This document shows positions 5,128 to 49,872 of a stretch of 64,000 bases of DNA, piece by piece. Both the position numbers and the translations under genes were made by a program. The notes beneath the pieces are model-generated. The model saw nothing but the letters and a program-made list of their open reading frames with translations. It was not told the origin of the DNA and made no database searches. The stretch is from Neobacillus sp. FSL H8-0543 (lineage in GTDB: Bacteria > Bacillota > Bacilli > Bacillales > Cytobacillaceae), in NCBI RefSeq assembly GCF_038592905.1, contig NZ_CP151943.1, forward strand, positions 902,001-966,000, given 5' to 3'. Each line of letters opens with the position of its first letter. Within the stretch, counting starts at the first letter, position 1.

Positions 5128-5376
5128 CAAAAAAGCCCTCATCCCTAACAGGGACGAAGACTAGCCTCGCGGTACCACCCTGATTATGAACACAAGAAAA
5201 ACTGCATTCATCTCTCAAAATTGCCTTAACGCGGCACTCACGGCAGTGGTTAGCTGCACTCTGGATTAGCTTTCTGTTATCCTTCATCTAGAGCTTCTTT
5301 CAGCTATGGAAGCTCCTCTCTAAAAAGATGGACTATAACATACTTGATCCTTCAACATGTTCATTCAATATTCTAT
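5128..5376 (-). promoter_or_regulatory. T-box leader of alaS
   Basis: This is a T-box riboswitch on the minus strand. The hallmark T-box sequence AGGGTGGTACCGCG is at 5168-5181. It is followed by a terminator whose ten-base-pair stem CTTCGTCCCT / AGGGATGAGG runs into GCTTTTTT at about 5127-5160. Upstream lies an AGAGAGGAGCTT stem I region. Uncharged tRNA-Ala should stabilise the antiterminator. The exact specifier triplet was not assigned. Confidence 0.88.
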
Positions 5377-5411: not shown

Positions 5412-5448
5412 TATTCACCACTATTTAGGGGGCAGGTTCTTTTTATTA

Positions 5449-5556
5449 CCCAAACTTGGTTCCTTTACATGGTTCGGTCGATGAAACCCTCTTTCATCGA
5501 CTCAAACTACGTTCCATGACTTGGTTCGGTCGATAAAGGGCCGACAATATTATCGA
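5449..5556. repeat. 52-bp-period hairpin repeat, locus A
   Basis: GGTTCGGTCGAT occurs at 5471 and again exactly 52 bases later at 5523. The flanking sequence also repeats (CAAACTTGGTTCC near 5451 versus CAAACTACGTTCC near 5503). In the first unit, 5476-5502 forms a hairpin with 11-base arms and the 5-nt loop CCCTC (GTCGATGAAA / TTTCATCGAC). The second unit has a degenerate stem (TCGATAA / TTATCGA). The array lies between the yrrI stop and the alaS promoter. Together with the T-box and promoter it accounts for the gene-free stretch from alaS to yrrI. Confidence 0.75.
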
Positions 5557-5575: not shown

Positions 5576-6643
5576 CTACTCAGTATTAATATGGGAAAGG
5601 TGATTTTTCGCATGAATAATACCTACTTTAAGAATAGCTAGCGTTGGAACCGCCAAAATCATTCCAATGATTCCTCCAATCTCTCCACCTCCGGTTAATG
5701 CAGCCATGATTATTAACGGATGCATGTGCAGACTTTTCCCGACAATATAGGGGGATAATATATTCCCTTCAATAAATTGGAGCCCAAAAACAATGGCAAT
5801 GGTAATGAAGACCATTTTCCCTGAAGTCGTTGCAGCGATAACGATTGCTGGTACAGCGCCAATTATTGGACCAAAATAGGGAATCACATTCGTAATGGCG
5901 ATAACTAACCCTAAAATTAACGGATACTTCAAGTCGAATATCCAAAATAAAATAGCAGACACCGTTCCGATGATGACACAAACTAACAGCTGCCCCCTGA
6001 TATAACCGCCAAGGGATTCGTCAACATCCTTTAGAAACTTAGTCCCTTTTCTTCTCCATTTTTTTGGCGTCATATACCAAGCAGCTCGTTTCATTAAGTG
6101 AAAATCCTTTAGCATATAAAAAGCAATAAACGGAATAATCACGATAAGTATTGCAGAGTTTAGAAAGCTTAGCAGTATATCAACAATAACCGACAAAAGC
6201 GAATCTAATTTATTTTCAAAGGCGATTATCCCTTTATTTATTTCCTCCTGAAGGCCATCTGGCCATTCCCTTGTGTGTGATTGAAGTATTTTTATCCAAT
6301 CACGGTACTGCTCAGCAAGTATTGGAGCACTTTCAGATAGATCTCTTAATTGTGCGATTAATGCTGGGATACCTTTATAAAGGGCAAATCCAATCCCTCC
6401 AAAAAATAGAAAATAAATAAGAAATATGGCAATTCCGCGGTGTAAGCCTTTTTCATGGAGTTTTTCAACAATAGGATGGAGCAAATAGGTAATAAACCCT
6501 CCGATAAAAAAAGGAAAGACGATAATCAGAATGATTTTAACAACCGGAAGCCAAACAAAACGAATTTTAAGGAATACATAAACAGCAATTAATAATAAAA
6601 GAAAAAAACCAATTCGATAAAACCATTTCATGCGAATATCCAA
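5576..6643 (-). CDS. yrrI: AI-2E family transporter YrrI
   Basis: This multi-spanning membrane protein of the AI-2E transporter (PF01594, former UPF0118) family has 355 residues. The family includes the E. coli AI-2 exporter TqsA and Na+/H+ antiporter-like members, so the substrate here is unknown. About eight hydrophobic segments are visible, with the family motif NVIPYFGPIIGAVPA in the C-terminal half. The start is set at the TTG at 6643 (LDIRMKWFY), because AAGGAGG lies seven bases upstream. An ATG at 6709 would add an unsupported Asn/Lys-rich stretch. It lies upstream of alaS, as in B. subtilis. Confidence 0.88.
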   Translation of the reverse strand: MDIRMKWFYRIGFFLLLLIAVYVFLKIRFVWLPVVKIILIIVFPFFIGGFITYLLHPIVEKLHEKGLHRGIAIFLIYFLFFGGIGFALYKGIPALIAQLRDLSESAPILAEQYRDWIKILQSHTREWPDGLQEEINKGIIAFENKLDSLLSVIVDILLSFLNSAILIVIIPFIAFYMLKDFHLMKRAAWYMTPKKWRRKGTKFLKDVDESLGGYIRGQLLVCVIIGTVSAILFWIFDLKYPLILGLVIAITNVIPYFGPIIGAVPAIVIAATTSGKMVFITIAIVFGLQFIEGNILSPYIVGKSLHMHPLIIMAALTGGGEIGGIIGMILAVPTLAILKVGIIHAKNHLSHINTE

Positions 6644-6732
6644 CGAATTTGCCTCCTTATTATTATTATTTTTAGAGACATTCGTTTTAGTTATGCACTT
6701 TAAACACATTATCTAGTCTAAGGAAAAGCAAA

Positions 6733-17059: not shown

Positions 17060-17827
17060 TTATTTCTCATCGGATACCCGTTGAATTTTTATATCCTTTA
17101 GAAGTTTTCTAACAACATAACTTGCCATGATCAGTCCGCAGGCAGATGGAACAAAGGCATTTGAGGCTGGGGGCATTTGTCCTTTTCTTGTTGCCGCTTG
17201 TTCATTTCCAACTTCTTTTTTAATATCTTCGCGAATGACAATTGGACTTTCATCGGAAAAGACAACAGGAATGCCTTTATGGATTCTTTCCTTGCGTAGC
17301 TTTTGGCGGATAACCTTTGCGATTGGGTCCGTATGTGTTTTGGAAATATCTACAATTTGGAAGCGGGTAGGATCCATCTTATTGGCAGCACCCATGCTCG
17401 AAATGATTGGGATGTTTCTTTTTAAACATTCCTTCATCAGATGAATTTTATAAACAATTGTATCTGAGGCATCGACGACAAAATCTAAATTGTAATTAAA
17501 AAATTCCTCATAGGTATCTTCTGTATAAAAGATTTTTAAAGCAATTACTTCACAATCAGGGTTAATATCCTTTATTCGCTCTTTCATAAGATCTACTTTC
17601 GGTTGACCAATCGTAGATAGGAGAGCAATAAGCTGGCGGTTAATGTTGGTAATATCAACATCATCTTTATCGACTAGTATTAAACGGCCCACACCAGAGC
17701 GTGCAAGCGCCTCAGCAGCGAATGAGCCAACTCCCCCCACTCCCAAAACAGCAACGGTGCTGTTTTTCATGATTTCCATACCTTCTTTGCCCATGGCAAG
17801 TTCATTACGAGAAAATTGATGTAACAT
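17060..17827 (-). CDS. tcdA: tRNA threonylcarbamoyladenosine dehydratase TcdA
   Basis: This E1-like ATP-dependent enzyme of 255 residues (YrvM; CsdL/YgdL in E. coli) cyclises t6A37 of ANN-decoding tRNAs to ct6A. The ThiF-fold core shows VLGVGGVGSFAAEALARSG for ATP binding, VDKDDVDITNINRQ, and DASDTIVYK. It begins MLHQFSRNELAMGKEG, typical of the family. In B. subtilis yrvM lies next to the 6S RNA gene and aspS, as here. A terminator follows. Confidence 0.92.
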   Translation of the reverse strand: MLHQFSRNELAMGKEGMEIMKNSTVAVLGVGGVGSFAAEALARSGVGRLILVDKDDVDITNINRQLIALLSTIGQPKVDLMKERIKDINPDCEVIALKIFYTEDTYEEFFNYNLDFVVDASDTIVYKIHLMKECLKRNIPIISSMGAANKMDPTRFQIVDISKTHTDPIAKVIRQKLRKERIHKGIPVVFSDESPIVIREDIKKEVGNEQAATRKGQMPPASNAFVPSACGLIMASYVVRKLLKDIKIQRVSDEK

Positions 17828-17974
17828 ACGTTCCTCCAGAAATTTAGATTCGATTCATTATTAAATATCTTTTACCCTAAAAAATATATCATACCTTTAC
17901 TTAAAAACAAGTATTTTGATGGGAATTATAATAGTTTTACTTGTGGAAAGCCTTTTTCCAATTTTCATTTTTCG

Positions 17975-18208
17975 GAGCTCGTAGACGGCTTCTACGTGAC
18001 CTCTTTTTCTGACTTTTTCTTTTTAAGGTCACGTAGACAGCCTCTACGTGACCTCTTTTTCCGATTTTTCTTTTTTCAGGGCACGTAGACAGTCTCTACG
18101 TGACCCCTTTTTCTGATTTTTCTTTTTTCAGGTCACGTAGACAGCCTCTACGTGACCTCTTTTCCGATTTTCCCATTTTCAGGACACGTAGACGGCTACA
18201 GCGCACTC
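17975..18208. repeat. 52-bp-period hairpin repeat array, locus C (five units)
   Basis: Five tandem units start at 17975, 18027, 18079, 18131 and 18182. Each of the best three has a 27-base hairpin made of 11-base arms and a 5-nt loop. Units 2 and 4 are perfect (GGTCACGTAGA / TCTACGTGACC, loop CAGCC). A 25-base T-rich spacer follows each hairpin. Unit 1 matches in eight of eleven arm positions and unit 5 is degenerate in the right arm. The array occupies the gap between tcdA and the 6S RNA terminator. On the plus strand the hairpins followed by CTCTTTTT resemble serial terminators, but no plus-strand gene precedes them. Confidence 0.85.
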
Positions 18209-18280
18209 TATTTTCCCTCCAACTGGTAGATATCGAGGACTTACCCCTTGGATAACCCACAATCCGCAAAAAAGCAAATA

Positions 18281-18317
18281 AAAATAGCCCCCTGCTTATG
18301 CAGGGGACTATTTTTAT
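18281..18317 (-). terminator. Intrinsic terminator of the 6S RNA gene
   Basis: The stem AAAAATAGCCCCCTGC / GCAGGGGACTATTTTT has one mismatch and a TTAT loop. It follows the 6S RNA body on the minus strand and ends in T-rich sequence. Confidence 0.82.
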
Positions 18318-18520
18318 AAGAGTCCCAATGGTGCCGTCGCTCTTGTGCCTTCTTTTGATCCCGCTACTTTCGCAGGTGGGTGTCTTGTTCCTAGTTTATG
18401 CAAGTCCCCTTACCGTGAAGGTGGGGCATTTACGCAGCTAGGAAACTCCGGACTCCCGAAGAAATAATGTTGGTCAAAAGATAGGTAATACAACGTACAT
18501 TTCAGGACGCTTATTTGATT
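18318..18520 (-). ncRNA. bsrA: 6S RNA (BsrA/SsrSA type)
   Basis: This gene-free stretch between aspS and tcdA encodes a long imperfect hairpin, as expected for 6S RNA, which binds SigA RNA polymerase by mimicking an open promoter. On the minus strand GAGTCC pairs with GGACTC near the ends. The apical arm is CCTAG..GC..ATGCCCC closing with GGGG..GCAT..CTAGG, and an internal bubble lies between. It has a good promoter in front and a terminator behind, giving about 200 nt. The location matches B. subtilis bsrA. Ends are estimated from promoter and terminator positions. Confidence 0.75.
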
Positions 18521-18581: not shown

Positions 18582-20351
18582 TTATTTCTTAACCTTTAAT
18601 GACAAGTAAAGCTCATTTAACTGGGCTTCTGAAACCTCACCAGGTGCATCTGTTAACAAACAACTTGCACTAGCAGTTTTTGGAAATGCAATCGTATCCC
18701 GTAAATTAGTGCTTCCAGCTAGAAGCATCACCAAACGGTCTAACCCAAGGGCAATTCCTCCATGTGGAGGTGTTCCATATTCGAAAGCATTTAGCAGGAA
18801 GCCAAACTGATTCTTAGCTTCTTCAGGTGTGAAACCGAGAACACTAAACATTTTTTCTTGAACAGTTCTTTCGAATATCCTTAATGATCCTCCGCCGAGC
18901 TCGTATCCGTTTAACACAAGGTCATAAGCTTGCGCACGCACTCTGCCCGGGTCTGTATCGAGGTAAGGAAGATCTTCCCTAACAGGCATGGTAAATGGAT
19001 GATGGGCAGCATAATAGCGTCCCTCTTCCTCTGCGTATTCAAGAAGCGGCCAATCAGTAACCCACAAGAAGTTGAACTGACTTTGATCAATTAAATTTAA
19101 TTCTTTCCCTAACTTTAAGCGGAGAGCGCCTAATGCATCAGCAACAACCTTCTGTTTATCTGCAACAAATAGCAAGAGGTCACCCGGATTTGCTTCAAGC
19201 GTAGCCTTAAGGGCATTTGCATCCTCATCACCAAAGAACTTCGCAATTGGACCTTTCAGACCATCTTCATCTACCTTTAGCCATGCAAGCCCCTTTGCCC
19301 CGTATACAGCAACAAATTCTGTTAACGCATCGATGTCTTTCCGGGAATAGTTATCAGCTGAACCTTTTACATTGATTGCCTTAACCTGCCCCCCATTAGT
19401 AACGGCAGCAGAAAATACTTTAAAGCCTGAATCCTTAACAACTTCTGAAAGGTCAACAAGTTCCAGTCCAAAACGAGTATCCGGTTTATCTGAACCGAAG
19501 CGGCTCATCGCTTCATCATAAGTCATCCTTGGGAAAGCAGCAGGTACTTCAACACCTTTTACTTCCTTCATTAACTGAGTCATCATTCTTTCCATCATCT
19601 TAATGATATCCTCTTGACTTAAGAAACTAGTCTCAATATCGATTTGTGTAAATTCCGGCTGACGGTCTGCACGCAAATCCTCATCGCGGAAGCAACGGGC
19701 AATCTGATAGTAACGCTCAATCCCGCCAACCATTAACATCTGTTTAAAAAGCTGCGGTGATTGCGGAAGGGCATAGAATTCACCAGGATGCACGCGGCTT
19801 GGTACAAGATAGTCACGGGCCCCTTCAGGTGTACTTTTTGTCAAAATCGGTGTTTCAATATCCAAAAATCCTTCAGAATCAAGAAAATCTCTAATTTGCT
19901 TCGTCACTTGATGACGCATTTTTAAGGTTTCAAAAATAACTGGACGGCGGAAATCTAAATAACGATATTTAAGACGAATGTCTTCCGATGCATCTGTTTT
20001 ATCCGATATTGTAAACGGAGGTGTTTTCGCCTCATTAATAATCGTCACTTTTTCCGCATGGACTTCAATCGTTCCAGTCTTTAGGTTTGGATTAACCGTT
20101 CCAGCTTCGCGCGCGACAACTGTCCCAACGATATCTAAAACAAACTCATTGCGGATTTTTTCAGCGGCCTCTAGGGCTTCCTTTGATAAGTCCGGGTTGA
20201 ATACGACTTGAACAATTCCTGAACGGTCGCGGAGGTCAATAAAAATCAGTCCGCCTAAATCTCGGCGTTTTTGGACCCACCCTTTTAGCGTTACTTTTTC
20301 ACCTATAGCTGATTCTGGAACATCACCGCAAAAATATGATCGACCATACAT
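18582..20351 (-). CDS. aspS: Aspartate--tRNA ligase
   Basis: This class IIb aminoacyl-tRNA synthetase has 589 residues. It has the N-terminal anticodon-binding OB fold ([26 protein letters not shown]), motif 2 [16 protein letters not shown], the bacterial GAD insertion and motif 3 [12 protein letters not shown]. The start is the ATG at 20351 (MYGRSYF), as in other AspRS. A longer frame from 20369 would overlap the hisS stop. It lies five bases after hisS in one message controlled by the hisS T-box. Whether it is discriminating or non-discriminating was not judged. Confidence 0.96.
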
Positions 20352-40275: not shown

Positions 40276-40458
40276 TCGGCTTCGTTCGTGGAATTGGTTA
40301 CCGCAGACGCTTCTCTTTGTGCTGTTCGGTAGCCAATATCCTTTGTTGACTACCGAAGTCTCTTCTCTTTCACTTGTTCGGTCGCCAATAGCCTTTGTTG
40401 ACTACCGAAGTCTCTTCTCTTTCACACGTTCGGTCGTCAATACATCATCAATATTAAC
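40276..40458. repeat. 52-bp-period hairpin repeat array, locus B (three to four units)
   Basis: TACCG-like cores recur at 40299, 40351 and 40403, exactly 52 bases apart, and GTTCGGT recurs with the same step. The clear hairpins are 40328-40354 and 40380-40406: 11-base arms (GGTAGCCAATA / TGTTGACTACC in the first) around 5-nt loops TCCTT and GCCTT. The spacers are pyrimidine-rich (GAAGTCTCTTCTCTTTCAC). Outer units are degenerate. The array lies between ruvA and the response-regulator stop and shares TTCGGTCG with locus A. Confidence 0.8.
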
Positions 40459-42233: not shown

Positions 42234-42381
42234 TCGATCCCCTCCAAATCAACACATAATTAAATCATAGTCGTTTCTTAATCCCTGTGGCAAGAATCAG
42301 GCATATTTAAGGAATGGAGTGATGTTACGAATGTGTAAAAATGAAAAAAATTGGAAATTCTCCTTACCTAAAATTCTTATC

Positions 42382-42528
42382 TGCCAAATTGTTGGTTTTA
42401 TCTGCCACTTTCATTGATTTATTTGCCACTTTCATTGATTTATTTGCCACTTTCATTGATTTATTTGCCACTTTCGTTGATTTATTTGCCACTTTCGTTG
42501 ATTTATCTGCCAATTTATACTCTACTCA
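42382..42528. repeat. 21-bp tandem repeat array (seven units)
   Basis: TGCCAC/TGCCAA recurs at 42382, 42403, 42424, 42445, 42466, 42487 and 42508, exactly 21 bases apart. The unit is close to TGCCACTTTCATTGATTTAT, with small changes at the ends. It fills the gap between the kinase gene and the VOC gene terminator. An open frame runs through it because 21 is a multiple of three, but it has no Shine-Dalgarno site and only repeats FATFIDL, so it is not called as a gene. Confidence 0.88.
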
Positions 42529-44814: not shown

Positions 44815-44945
44815 TGGATGAGGAATCCGGATTCATTACCCAAATCTTTGAGAAATTGATATAGCGGGACACCATGAGCCCTCCATGATGACCGAATTGT
44901 TCAGAAATCGATATTGCGGGCACCATGAAAATTTTTGGATGAGAA
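44815..44945. repeat. 52-bp-period hairpin repeat array, locus D (two to three units)
   Basis: AGAAATTGATAT at 44851 recurs as AGAAATCGATAT at 44903, exactly 52 bases on, and CACCATGA recurs with nearly the same step. The central unit, 44867-44893, forms an 11-5-11 hairpin (GGACACCATGA / CCATGATGACC, loop GCCCT) with one mismatch and two wobble pairs. A perfect palindrome GAATCCGGATTC is centred at 44828, 52 bases before the centre of that hairpin. The array lies between the SDR start and the bofC terminator. Confidence 0.68.
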
Positions 44946-46467: not shown

Positions 46468-47445
46468 TCAAAGTGTCCTTTTAATATCATCGATGAAATT
46501 TTTTCGCAATAAAAATTGTCCGATTGTTAACTCCATTACTTGATTATATTTTTGATGATCCGTATAGGACTTTTCACGGATCAGTCTGTTCCATTCCCGA
46601 AAAATATCTGCAGGGAAGACCAAGGCGTATAAAAAGGCTTTTTCCTTTAACAAGGTATCAAACTTGCGATGACTTTTTAATCGTTCAAATGACCAATCAA
46701 TAAAGGGGAGAATTCGATTGGCATATTGTAAATAATCCAAGACTTCTGGGCCGATACTAATTAAATCGAAATCAATTAAGTGCAGCTTCCACCGTTTATC
46801 ACGCAAGAAATTATGATGTGCCACATCACCATGAAGAACAACAAAAGGTTCATTCATATAAAATGATCGACTTTCCTCCATTTTATTTATAGACCAATTG
46901 GCCCAATCTAACATTTCCGTTAAGTATTTTTCATGCATAAAATATTTTAGTGTTGGAAGGTTGGTTGCAAATAAATTAGTCCTTTCCTTCCATTTTTTAA
47001 TAATCGTGCTTTGGGGGAGAAGTGTTCGATAACGAGATTCAAAGTTCCTAGTCACTTGATGAAATTGCTCAAGTAATTCAATTCCCTCTTGACGGCTTTT
47101 TTGAGTCTGAAAGGTAAATGGCATTTTATTTGGGTGGATGTATTCGATGCCGCCAAAATAGTGTCCATCGAAGTAGAGCATTTCATCGACAGGTAGTCTT
47201 ACGAATTGGTATGTGTTTGAAAAACCCTCTTTTCTTAATGTACGTATAAAAGCTTCTTGCAACTTAAGCCGATTGTTTGTCTGGTACCCTTTGATCATAT
47301 ATGAATTCTTAGTTGTTTTTAACATAATTACACTTTTACGAAACGGCACCATTTCAATAATGTCCTCTCGAAAATGCGACCGAAAATAAGAGAGGAGACG
47401 GATGAAATAATCATCGTCTCCTTTTTTGTTAAAAGTCATACTCAT
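46468..47445 (-). CDS. Kinase-fold (aminoglycoside phosphotransferase-like) protein, probable spore coat family
   Basis: This protein of about 325 residues resembles the APH/CotS/YutH kinase-fold group used in spore coats. The catalytic-loop region is [16 protein letters not shown], followed by [20 protein letters not shown], giving the HGD...N and DFD pattern. It follows safA and overlaps its stop, a place consistent with a coat function. The start is uncertain: ATGs at 47445 and 47439 lie inside the safA end without a good Shine-Dalgarno site. A fine AAAGGAG follows the safA stop but has only an out-of-frame ATG behind it. Kinase activity is untested. Confidence 0.78.
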
Positions 47446-49732
47446 TACTTTCGTCATTGTAACGCTGCATACCAAACTGGTTTCCGTCCATTGGTCCCAT
47501 ACCATACGGGTTCATGTATGGCGGCTGAGCCATATCCATTGGCCCTGTATAGGGTGCGCTGTATATCGGCGGCGTCGGAGGTACGAATTCCGGTTGCATT
47601 GGTGCTGGTCCTGGTGCACCACAGCCGCAATCACCACCAGCGCCTACTGGTATATTTCCTGGTGCTGGATATGGCTGTTGCATAAATGGCATTTGACCTA
47701 CACCCCTATCCGGTGATTCAAAATCTTGTTCTCCCATCACTCGTGGTGCAGGACCCATCTGCGGATAGCCATAAGGCATTTGACCGTAGGATGCTGGTGC
47801 CCCCATTCCCATTGGAGGTCCGCCCATTCCTGGATAGCCCATTTGCGATCCACCCATTGGAGGTCCGCCCATTCCTGGATAGCCCATTTGCGATCCACCC
47901 ATTGGAGGTCCGCCCATTCCTGGATAGCCCATTTGCGATCCACCCATTGGAGGTCCGCCCATTCCTGGATAGCCCATTTGCGATCCACCCATTGGAGGTC
48001 CGCCCATTCCTGGATAGCCCATTTGCGATCCACCCATTGGAGGTCCGCCCATTCCTGGATGGCCCATTGGCGATCCACTCATTGGTGGTCCGCCCATTCC
48101 TGGATGACCCATTTGCATTCCCATTTGAGGTCCGCCCATTCCTGGATAGCCCATTTGCGATCCACTCATTGGTGGTCCGCCCATTCCTGGATGACCCATT
48201 TGCATTCCCATTTGAGGTCCGCCCATTCCTGGATTGCCCATTTGCATTCCCATTGGTGGTCCGCTCATTCCTGGGTTGCCCATTTGCATTCCCATTGGCG
48301 ATCCACCCATTCCTGGGTTGCCCATTTGCATTCCCATTGGCGATCCACCCATTCCTGGGTTGCTCATGTGCATTCCCTGCATACCCTGGGCCTCCGGATT
48401 AAACCAGCCCTGATTTGCCGCTAATGGTGAACCTACAGGGGCTCCTATCGGACTTTCATCAAAATCAAAAGGCATTTCATCGTAACCTGCTGGGGCGTGA
48501 TCAAATTCCGCTGGAGTTTGACCATATCCTGCTGGTGTCTGACCATACCCTGCTGGTGTCTGACCATACCCTGCTGGTGTCTGACCATACCCTGCTGGTG
48601 TTTGACCGTACCCTGCTGGTGTCTGACCATACCCTGCTGGTGTCTGACCATACCCTGCTGGTGTCTGACCATACCCTGCTGGTGTCTGACCATACCCTGC
48701 TGGTGTCTGACCATACCCTGCTGGCTGGCCGTATTCTACTGGCATCTGACCAAAATGGGCAGGATCCAAAGTTGGTGCTTGCGACTGCATTGGATAAGTC
48801 ATTGGCAATTGCGGCATGAAGGATGATTCGTCATCCATTTGATAAGGCATTGCTGATGCACCGACCACTGTAGGTGCTGGACTTGGCTGATACGGCATCA
48901 TTTCAGGGCCTGGATGCATTCCTGGCATCATTCCTGGTGCCCCTGGCATATTTTCTCCTAGCACTTGTGGAAATGGCATAACTGGTGGTGCTTGGAAGCC
49001 TCCAAAAGGAGGACACGGCGGCGGACATGGTAGCGGTGGACACGGCATTGGCGGGCAATAGCCAGGTCCAGGCATGACAGGTGTCATTGGTACACAATAT
49101 TCTTCTTGTAGAACTGGTTGTTCAATGGGTGGTGGCGGTGCTACGATAGGTGCCTCCTTTATTGGTGCAACTGGTACAGGAATTTCCTTTTTAGGTACTT
49201 CCTTTACCTGAGGGAGAATATTAGCAGGCTTTGGCGGCAGTTGTGGTTGAATATTTGCCATGTTTACCGTATAAAAATTGTTTATATCTATTTCAGGAGC
49301 AATTTTAATTGGCATTTTCGGCTGATAAGGTACTTTAGGTGCTTCTTTGATAATTGGTACTTCTTTGATAATTGGTTTTTCTTTAACAATAGGAACTTCT
49401 TTGATAATTGGTTTTTCTTTAACAATAGGAACTTCTTTGATTGGAACCTCCTTTTTCGGAGCTGCAATCGGCTTTTCCTTGACAAACGGATGCTCAGCAA
49501 TCGGCATTTCTTTTTTTGCGCCTAAATTGATTGTAGTTTCCGGTGTAGACCCCATAGGTGCTTCTTTTTTTATTGTTCCACCTGCTGTTGGGACTTTTAT
49601 TTTCATACCGGGCATAATCATATCAGGGTTGCTGAGCTGTGAATTCATCTTTTTCAGCTCTTCAAAATTCACTCCGTACTTCTTGGCGATCTTCCAAAGG
49701 GTATCCCCTTTCTGTACGATATGGATCTTCAC
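47429..49732 (-). CDS. safA: Spore coat morphogenetic protein SafA (long, repeat-rich form)
   Basis: SafA organises inner spore coat assembly and binds the cortex through an N-terminal LysM domain. The LysM is at residues 1-48 ([29 protein letters not shown]). [14 protein letters not shown] Lys/Pro region, a Pro-rich segment, about 11 copies of YGQTPAG and then Met/Gly-rich 15-residue repeats ([15 protein letters not shown]) follow. At 767 residues it is about twice the B. subtilis SafA (about 387), the gain being in the repeats. The GTG at 49732 has GGAGGG eight bases upstream. Long frames on the opposite strand are shadows of the repeats. Confidence 0.9.
47805..48365 (-). repeat. Met/Gly-rich coding repeats in safA
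   Basis: Tandem units of 45 bp encode [19 protein letters not shown] 15-residue repeats. The five or so units from 47805 to 48060 are nearly identical. More varied units with [10 protein letters not shown] follow at higher coordinates. The near identity points to recent expansion by slippage or unequal crossing-over. Confidence 0.88.
48500..48740 (-). repeat. 21-bp coding repeats (YGQTPAG) in safA
   Basis: About eleven tandem 21-bp units encode YGQTPAG. Most differ by at most one base, so the block is recent and likely variable between strains. Confidence 0.88.
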
Positions 49733-49872
49733 TCTGATTTCCCTCCTATGCATAAGTCCATATAGTGTATGTGGTGATAGGCAAAGTGCTAACATTCTTC
49801 ACAGAAACTTATGCTTTTTTTTAATAAAATATGAATTTCCGCTAATGAATTAAAAAGATATTGCAGGTATGC

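Follow-up and report, generated by a model that had tools for sequence, protein, structure and literature searches.

Clusters of short imperfect palindromes occur in the intergenic DNA of enterobacteria as the REP and BIME-2 elements, with a conserved tetranucleotide at the hairpin foot and, in BIMEs, an alternating orientation of the units. Eukaryotic satellite DNA has a fixed monomer length, homogenised arrays and a fast sequence turnover, and the Bacillus cereus group carries the bcr elements, which are dispersed noncoding repeats of about 155 bp. According to one account (PMC6379681), BIME-2 palindromic repeats are strong, transcription-independent gyrase sites in E. coli, where the gyrase motif is symmetrical and covers 130 bp with a G/C periodicity of 10.75 bp. 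Here we describe intergenic arrays of tandem 52-bp palindromic units in a window of 64,000 nucleotides from Neobacillus sp. FSL H8-0543 (positions 902001-966000 of the 5.30-Mb chromosome, NZ_CP151943.1; coordinates given below are those of the window unless another locus is named), four gaps of which had been said in a preliminary description to contain such units.

Like the REP/BIME-2 elements, these arrays are clusters of short imperfect palindromes in intergenic DNA. Unlike them, they have a step fixed at 52 bp and freely changing arm sequences, their units are direct repeats in a single orientation, they lack a conserved word at the hairpin foot (none was found in the six columns preceding the hairpin in 46 arrays), they do not appear to be strictly tied to a Y1 transposase and, in the genomes sampled, they are almost confined to one Bacillus-related order. 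With the E. coli gyrase motif they share symmetry and helical periodicity (of G/C over the wrapped flanks in that motif), but the motif is degenerate and occurs as single sites, in another organism, whereas the arrays are 52-bp tandem repeats. Fixed monomer length, homogenised arrays and fast turnover are features in common with eukaryotic satellites, from which the arrays differ in being bacterial, with a 52-bp monomer, 2-30 units per array and many small arrays per chromosome. The bcr elements are also noncoding repeats in Bacillus relatives and are set apart by the description given above, not being 52-bp tandem repeats. CRISPR was rejected because linkers recur within an array, so that there are no unique spacers. 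No known family tested here fits the arrays, and searches of the repeat literature turned up no description of such arrays, which is weak evidence of absence.

The reading we favour, at a probability a little short of even, is that the arrays are DNA-level elements, namely helix-phased tandem palindromic satellites that would probably be assembly sites of a DNA-bending or DNA-wrapping protein. Action at the level of DNA is suggested by their fixed length, by a shape that is kept despite the change of letters, by their helical phase and by a strand preference linked to replication.

At all four window sites, lag 52 beats every other lag of 30-74. When the best 40-bp identity at lag 52 was compared with the maximum of 500 shuffles, it reached 0.95 against 0.55 at 17975-18208, 0.97 against 0.55 at 40276-40458, 0.75 against 0.47 at 5449-5556 and 0.62 against 0.50 at 44815-44945. 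A covariance model (R1, built from the registered alignment described below, with rough E-values) matched the first three of these sites with E-values of 9e-19, 5e-9 and 6e-7, respectively, the scores of the first two being partly built in, as both arrays supplied rows to the model. At 44815-44945 the E-value is only 0.3-0.9, and for this reason the site is called a weak, degenerate lag-52 relic; the four gaps initially reported are thus reduced to three clear arrays and this relic. The main array (17958-18217, minus strand) has about five units of 52 bp of arm class GGTCACGTAGA/TCTACGTGACC, with degenerate end units, and its minus strand is both the purine-rich and the leading strand. R1 matches it at 18073-18163 (9e-19), a stretch that itself supplied a row to the model, and at 17968-18059 (8e-15). 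Two of its units contain perfect 12-5-12 palindromes (18130-18158 and 18026-18054) that are 104 bp, or two steps, apart. The array at 40291-40453 (minus strand, about three units) has near-perfect palindromes at 40325-40357 and 40377-40409, which are 14-5-14 hairpins with two and three non-Watson-Crick positions, respectively, and the two-unit array at 5437-5544 (minus strand) has an 11-5-11 hairpin with one G-T at 5476-5502.

To place these sites in the genome, 80 stretches of 20 kb were sampled along with the window, an array being detected in noncoding DNA as at least 70% identity across 40 bp at a given lag. In this 1.65 Mb of the Neobacillus genome, lag 52 gave 26 noncoding arrays and lags 43-50 and 55-62 gave none, so that a check set beforehand bears out the excess at lag 52; lags 51, 53 and 54 occurred nine, three and one times, mostly within the same arrays as lag 52. 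After merging, 28 arrays account for 13.9 kb of 1.66 Mb (the longest being about 1.5 kb), which by scaling from the sample corresponds to about 80-90 arrays per genome, or 0.8% of the DNA. In 800 kb from eight congeneric genomes there were 12 arrays after merging, with two of these genomes having none; a genome of another family (G033) had 3 in 60 kb, and five other genomes had none in the 340 kb sampled. The length of the step was measured in a set of 50 arrays, made up of 35 of the 43 sampled arrays (8 under 130 bp were left out) and a selection of 15 from named genomes. Unit-to-unit steps in this set are of 52 bp in 393 cases out of 434, of 51 bp in 26, of 53 bp in 10 and of another length in 5. 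One step of 93 bp is found in the array at L142:13512-14103, and an array of about 16 units without a strong hairpin (L024:7255-8072) has an internal 48-bp step variant. Locus L033 carries the same array twice (18064-18441 and 19258-19665), about 1.2 kb apart, either through duplication or as an assembly effect.

In each unit, an inverted repeat of about 27 bp is joined to a linker of about 25 bp that is rich in purines and in A, and units are near-identical within arrays (mean identity to the consensus 0.86-0.94 where there are at least two units). Thirty-nine of the 50 arrays were registered on the hairpin centre, the other 11 being dropped for a low score or a wrong register, and the resulting MAFFT alignment is almost gap-free. 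The plan common to these 39 arrays has GGT or TGT at its outer left end, then four or five free positions, and next a loop rich in A and G that frequently ends in AGGT. On the right side come the complementary free positions, GAC followed by C or A, and a GAA-like tail. Halfway to the following hairpin there is an A-rich stretch. An 11-5-11 hairpin, at first taken to be shared by all sites, is indeed the commonest plan but is not universal, as the consensus hairpin exceeds all 30 shuffles in 33 of the 50 arrays and does not do so in 17.

Arm sequences vary between arrays yet remain complementary. In the alignment of 39 arrays, 89.0% of cells are paired, compared with 59.5% in shuffles and 33-45% in slid versions, a figure inflated by the choice of the best unit pair per array, the 33 of 50 arrays that beat all shuffles being the fairer check on the hairpin. 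Changes on both sides are found in 243 cells of the same alignment, against 71 in shuffles, and per-site variation within arrays is lower in stems (0.073) than in linkers (0.111).

The equation of 52 bp with five helical turns, made when the repeats were first noticed, receives independent support from the A/T content of the unit, which peaks at a period of 10.4 bp. This is shown by Fourier analysis across the 52-bp unit, in which harmonic 5 (10.4 bp) exceeds every other one of the 26 and, in the profile of the 39 registered arrays, accounts for 31% of the power. Its mean share in the 50 unregistered arrays is 0.090; with the columns shuffled it is 0.039 (z 9.5), and in 3762 intergenic windows from elsewhere it is 0.045. 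Linkers were analysed in a second set of 50 arrays, consisting of the 39 registered ones and 11 of 12 loci fetched in the order-wide search described below. Among these, 34 non-redundant linkers (<60% mutual identity) have a best period of 10.4 with a phase coherence R of 0.76 (p 3e-9), and 12 linkers that resemble each other at chance level only (identity 0.317, against 0.312 shuffled) have an R of 0.83 (p 2.6e-4) and a best period of 10.0. Linker and hairpin are in the same phase, with the A/T maximum 5.1 bp from the hairpin centre. We take this helical phasing as the main evidence that it is the double helix that would be recognised; it does not name the protein.

The strand carrying the arrays is linked to replication. 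With GC skew switching near 2.5 Mb, 38 of the 39 arrays whose strand is clear have their purine-rich strand as the leading one (4 of the 43 sampled arrays were unclear and excluded), the sole lagging-strand array of this sample being the one at L142:13512-14103. This orientation is found between convergent genes (13/13), between divergent genes (3/3) and where both neighbours are on the lagging strand (2/2, one of the two gene pairs being confirmed by Pfam as real genes). At the named loci, 17 of 19 clear cases are leading according to local skew (L034 and L054 disagree, and L036 is unclear), and a chromosome scan in which 150 of 1831 candidates were scored gave at least 26 clusters, 3 of them lagging. 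Leading-strand purine content is 0.595 in 28 arrays and 0.518 in 572 other gaps (p 7e-11), and a composition bias of the leading strand may add to the purine and strand bias of the arrays.

The location originally proposed for the arrays, after the end of a minus-strand unit and before the next promoter or gene start, proves too narrow, since besides codirectional gaps they occupy those between convergent genes and, less often, divergent genes. The main array is flanked by the 6S RNA gene (18318-18511, minus strand, Rfam RF00013), its upstream neighbour, which lies outside the array, and by a downstream gene at 17060-17827 (minus strand), presumably yrvM/tcdA; the array at 5437-5544 lies between the end of the gene at 5576-6709 and a T-box leader at 5147-5364. 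The gene at 17060-17827 served as an anchor for retrieving the corresponding locus from 80 named genomes. In the slot 3' of this gene, an array is present at 8 of 10 convergent and 1 of 25 codirectional sites among 35 Neobacillus-like loci (p 1.6e-5), and at 9 of 37 convergent sites against 1 of 41 when every locus having a next gene, 78 in total, is counted (p 0.005), both p values ignoring kinship. The nine slot arrays with readable arms fall into seven arm classes, one of which is common to L014, L021 and L029. Neighbouring genes look ordinary: 18 of the 20 proteins scanned (37 listed) belong to Pfam families, and none of the 20 is a transposase.

The family extends far beyond the window, as the search with a covariance model called for at the outset demonstrates. 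At an E-value of 1e-4 and with ten candidates scored per genome, R1 matched at least 128 of the 397 genomes searched in the order, the window's genome included, and at least 50 of 135 genera. Phylum-wide, 5 of 398 genomes had matches at 1e-5, namely the window's genome, three more of the order and a weak one outside it; in these samples, then, the arrays are nearly confined to one order of Bacillus relatives. Twelve loci were fetched, one from the window's genome, four from another genus of its family and seven from other families, and all of them show lag 52 and the common unit plan. Their setting is convergent in six to eight cases, two of the eight resting on open reading frames of 85 and 90 aa. 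In the 1.57 Mb of the 80 named loci, 60 of 62 R1 matches are in or bordering arrays of lag 51-53, the matches at those twelve of the 80 named loci that supplied rows to the model being built in. Outside lag-52 arrays, R1 matched a lag-50 repeat (L026:7991-8083) and a site without a lag call (L054:11021-11107).

If the arrays are assembly sites of a bending or wrapping protein, all units and their A/T-rich steps would lie on the same face of the helix, the array would bend one way, and the protein would bind it cooperatively, one unit after another. Among the roles listed in the preliminary description, that of a protein-binding scaffold is the best supported. We give the more general proposal, that the arrays are bent or wrapped, close to even odds. 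Gyrase would be the leading candidate, unproven and, as the specific protein, distinctly doubtful; it is put forward because the E. coli gyrase site is symmetrical and 10.75-bp periodic and because BIME-2 elements are strong gyrase sites. DNA gyrase would work near the ends of transcription units, chiefly between convergent genes, where positive supercoils gather, by analogy with BIME-2 in E. coli. Another wrapping protein (HU-like or SMC) would fit the sequence data as well as gyrase does. The arrays themselves would expand, contract and be replaced by new arm classes, their shape being kept while their letters turn over.

Several observations weigh against this reading. Just 9 of 383 within-array departures from the paired consensus are compensated, the remainder consisting of 101 G-T, 55 A-C and 218 others, so that pairs are mostly broken; the compensatory arm changes inferred from the window at first sight hold between arrays, where pairing is kept, and not for single changes within arrays. 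Stem substitutions lean towards G-T over A-C (66 against 46 events, p 0.059), a lean that would speak for folding as a single strand. All intergenic DNA has some weak A/T phasing at about 10.4 bp (a share of 0.045, where a uniform spectrum would give 0.0385), and the phasing of the arrays is therefore an excess rather than a unique property. It weakens, while still being present, when the first three linker bases (the GAA-like tail) are omitted (R 0.63, n 42; 0.48, p 0.015, n 18; 0.71, p 0.007, n 10; p values spanning 5e-8 to 0.015). Enrichment between convergent genes is not significant genome-wide (Fisher p 0.36), and symmetrical gyrase binding cannot alone explain the strand bias.

The strongest competing explanation, which we consider unlikely, is that the arrays are neutral or selfish satellites, their hairpin-prone units having been multiplied and moved by template switching, by slippage during replication or, as with REP elements, by a single-strand mechanism acting on the lagging-strand template, without benefit to the host. 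This would account for near-identical units within arrays and degenerate end units, for the recurrence of an arm class at dispersed sites whose linkers differ, for the seven classes among the nine slot arrays and for a strand tied to replication; quasipalindrome correction, moreover, can change both arms together without selection. Y1 transposases (PF01797; best 10 or fewer candidates per genome at E<=1e-5, with IS200 copies and RAYTs pooled) are also commoner in array-positive genomes (107/128) than in array-negative ones (179/269; odds ratio 2.6, p 3e-4), which may leave room for a REP-like origin. At the same threshold, however, PF01797 was not found in 21 of the 128 array-positive genomes, and dependence on RAYTs seems unlikely, the Y1 transposase being enriched with arrays yet apparently not required. 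In many genomes of the order there is just one divergent Y1 transposase match, weaker (E about 1e-13) than the IS200-like ones (about 1e-40); it may be a retained single-copy gene. Neutral spread predicts neither a single fixed length across many families nor the helical phasing of unrelated linkers, and a single array, looked for among plasmid and phage records, gave no match, a plasmid or phage origin being rejected on this one query per collection. Whatever their function, the arrays probably grow by slippage-type satellite turnover.

It is less probable still that the arrays act as RNA, their leading-direction transcripts forming chains of hairpins that would protect mRNA 3' ends or serve as a sponge for proteins or small RNAs. 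In favour of this are the strong covariation between arrays and the weak lean towards G-T in stems. In 20 of 32 cases the purine strand also has a slightly better fold than the complementary strand (p 0.036), and 19 of the 22 arrays between codirectional genes are sense with those genes. Where both neighbours are lagging, however, the array is antisense to both of them in both cases; the strict 52-base step and the 10.4-bp phasing are left unexplained; and Rfam gave no match on arrays (the window at the gathering score and eight array loci to E 1), its matches lying only outside them. A modular RNA fold was rejected, as most predicted pairs link different units. The antisense terminator array suggested at the outset is not supported as a role for the family, a T run (5 of 8) following the hairpin on the purine strand in none of 39 arrays and on the other strand in 6 of 39. 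The main window array is one of these six, and such a role may apply at this array alone. Ordinary terminators are about equally frequent at array-adjacent gene ends (23 of 52) and at other gene ends (40% of 250).

A role in marking the polarity of the chromosome for a directional DNA motor or repair enzyme would agree with the 38 of 39 leading-strand arrays, with their raised leading-strand purine content and with the B. subtilis Chi word (46 leading against 13 lagging in arrays, 4.2 times the sample density; kept as a lead), but it is very improbable, as 3 of 26 clusters of the chromosome scan lie on the other strand and, on the leading strand of 13.9 kb of arrays, the SpoIIIE word occurs once and the FtsK word not at all, both being too rare to be retained.

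Other repeats were encountered alongside the arrays. A separate intergenic tandem repeat has a period of about 20-21 bp (two helical turns) and letters that differ by species; it is found at 42371-42527 of the window and at L028:3480-3930, L032:18310-18500, L033:6270-6550 and L038:18780-18910, and peaks at lags 42 and 63 are mainly due to it. Similar two-unit 51-bp repeats with a different hairpin (of the AATAGACGGAG... type) at L159:11431-11539 and L169:12919-13032 possibly represent another small family. At 47429-49795 of the window, a 788-aa reading frame, which may perhaps encode a spore-coat type protein, has internal tandem repeats of 45, 21 and 18-36 bp.

A wider proposition, on the whole unlikely, is that the arrays are a bacterial counterpart of satellite DNA, with a monomer defined by its shape (five helical turns, a palindrome and phased A/T steps) that is repeatedly replaced at fixed slots across the order, forming a strong wrapping site for gyrase or a nucleoid protein that would set intergenic supercoiling and arise in register with replication. 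If so, nearly one percent of the Neobacillus chromosome, and some share of many related chromosomes, would consist of an element coded by shape, whose changing letters hide it from ordinary sequence searches. Such arrays would be a Gram-positive counterpart to BIME arrays, they would make the handling of intergenic supercoils testable at defined places, and they would represent a satellite-like turnover in bacteria under the constraint of length and phase.
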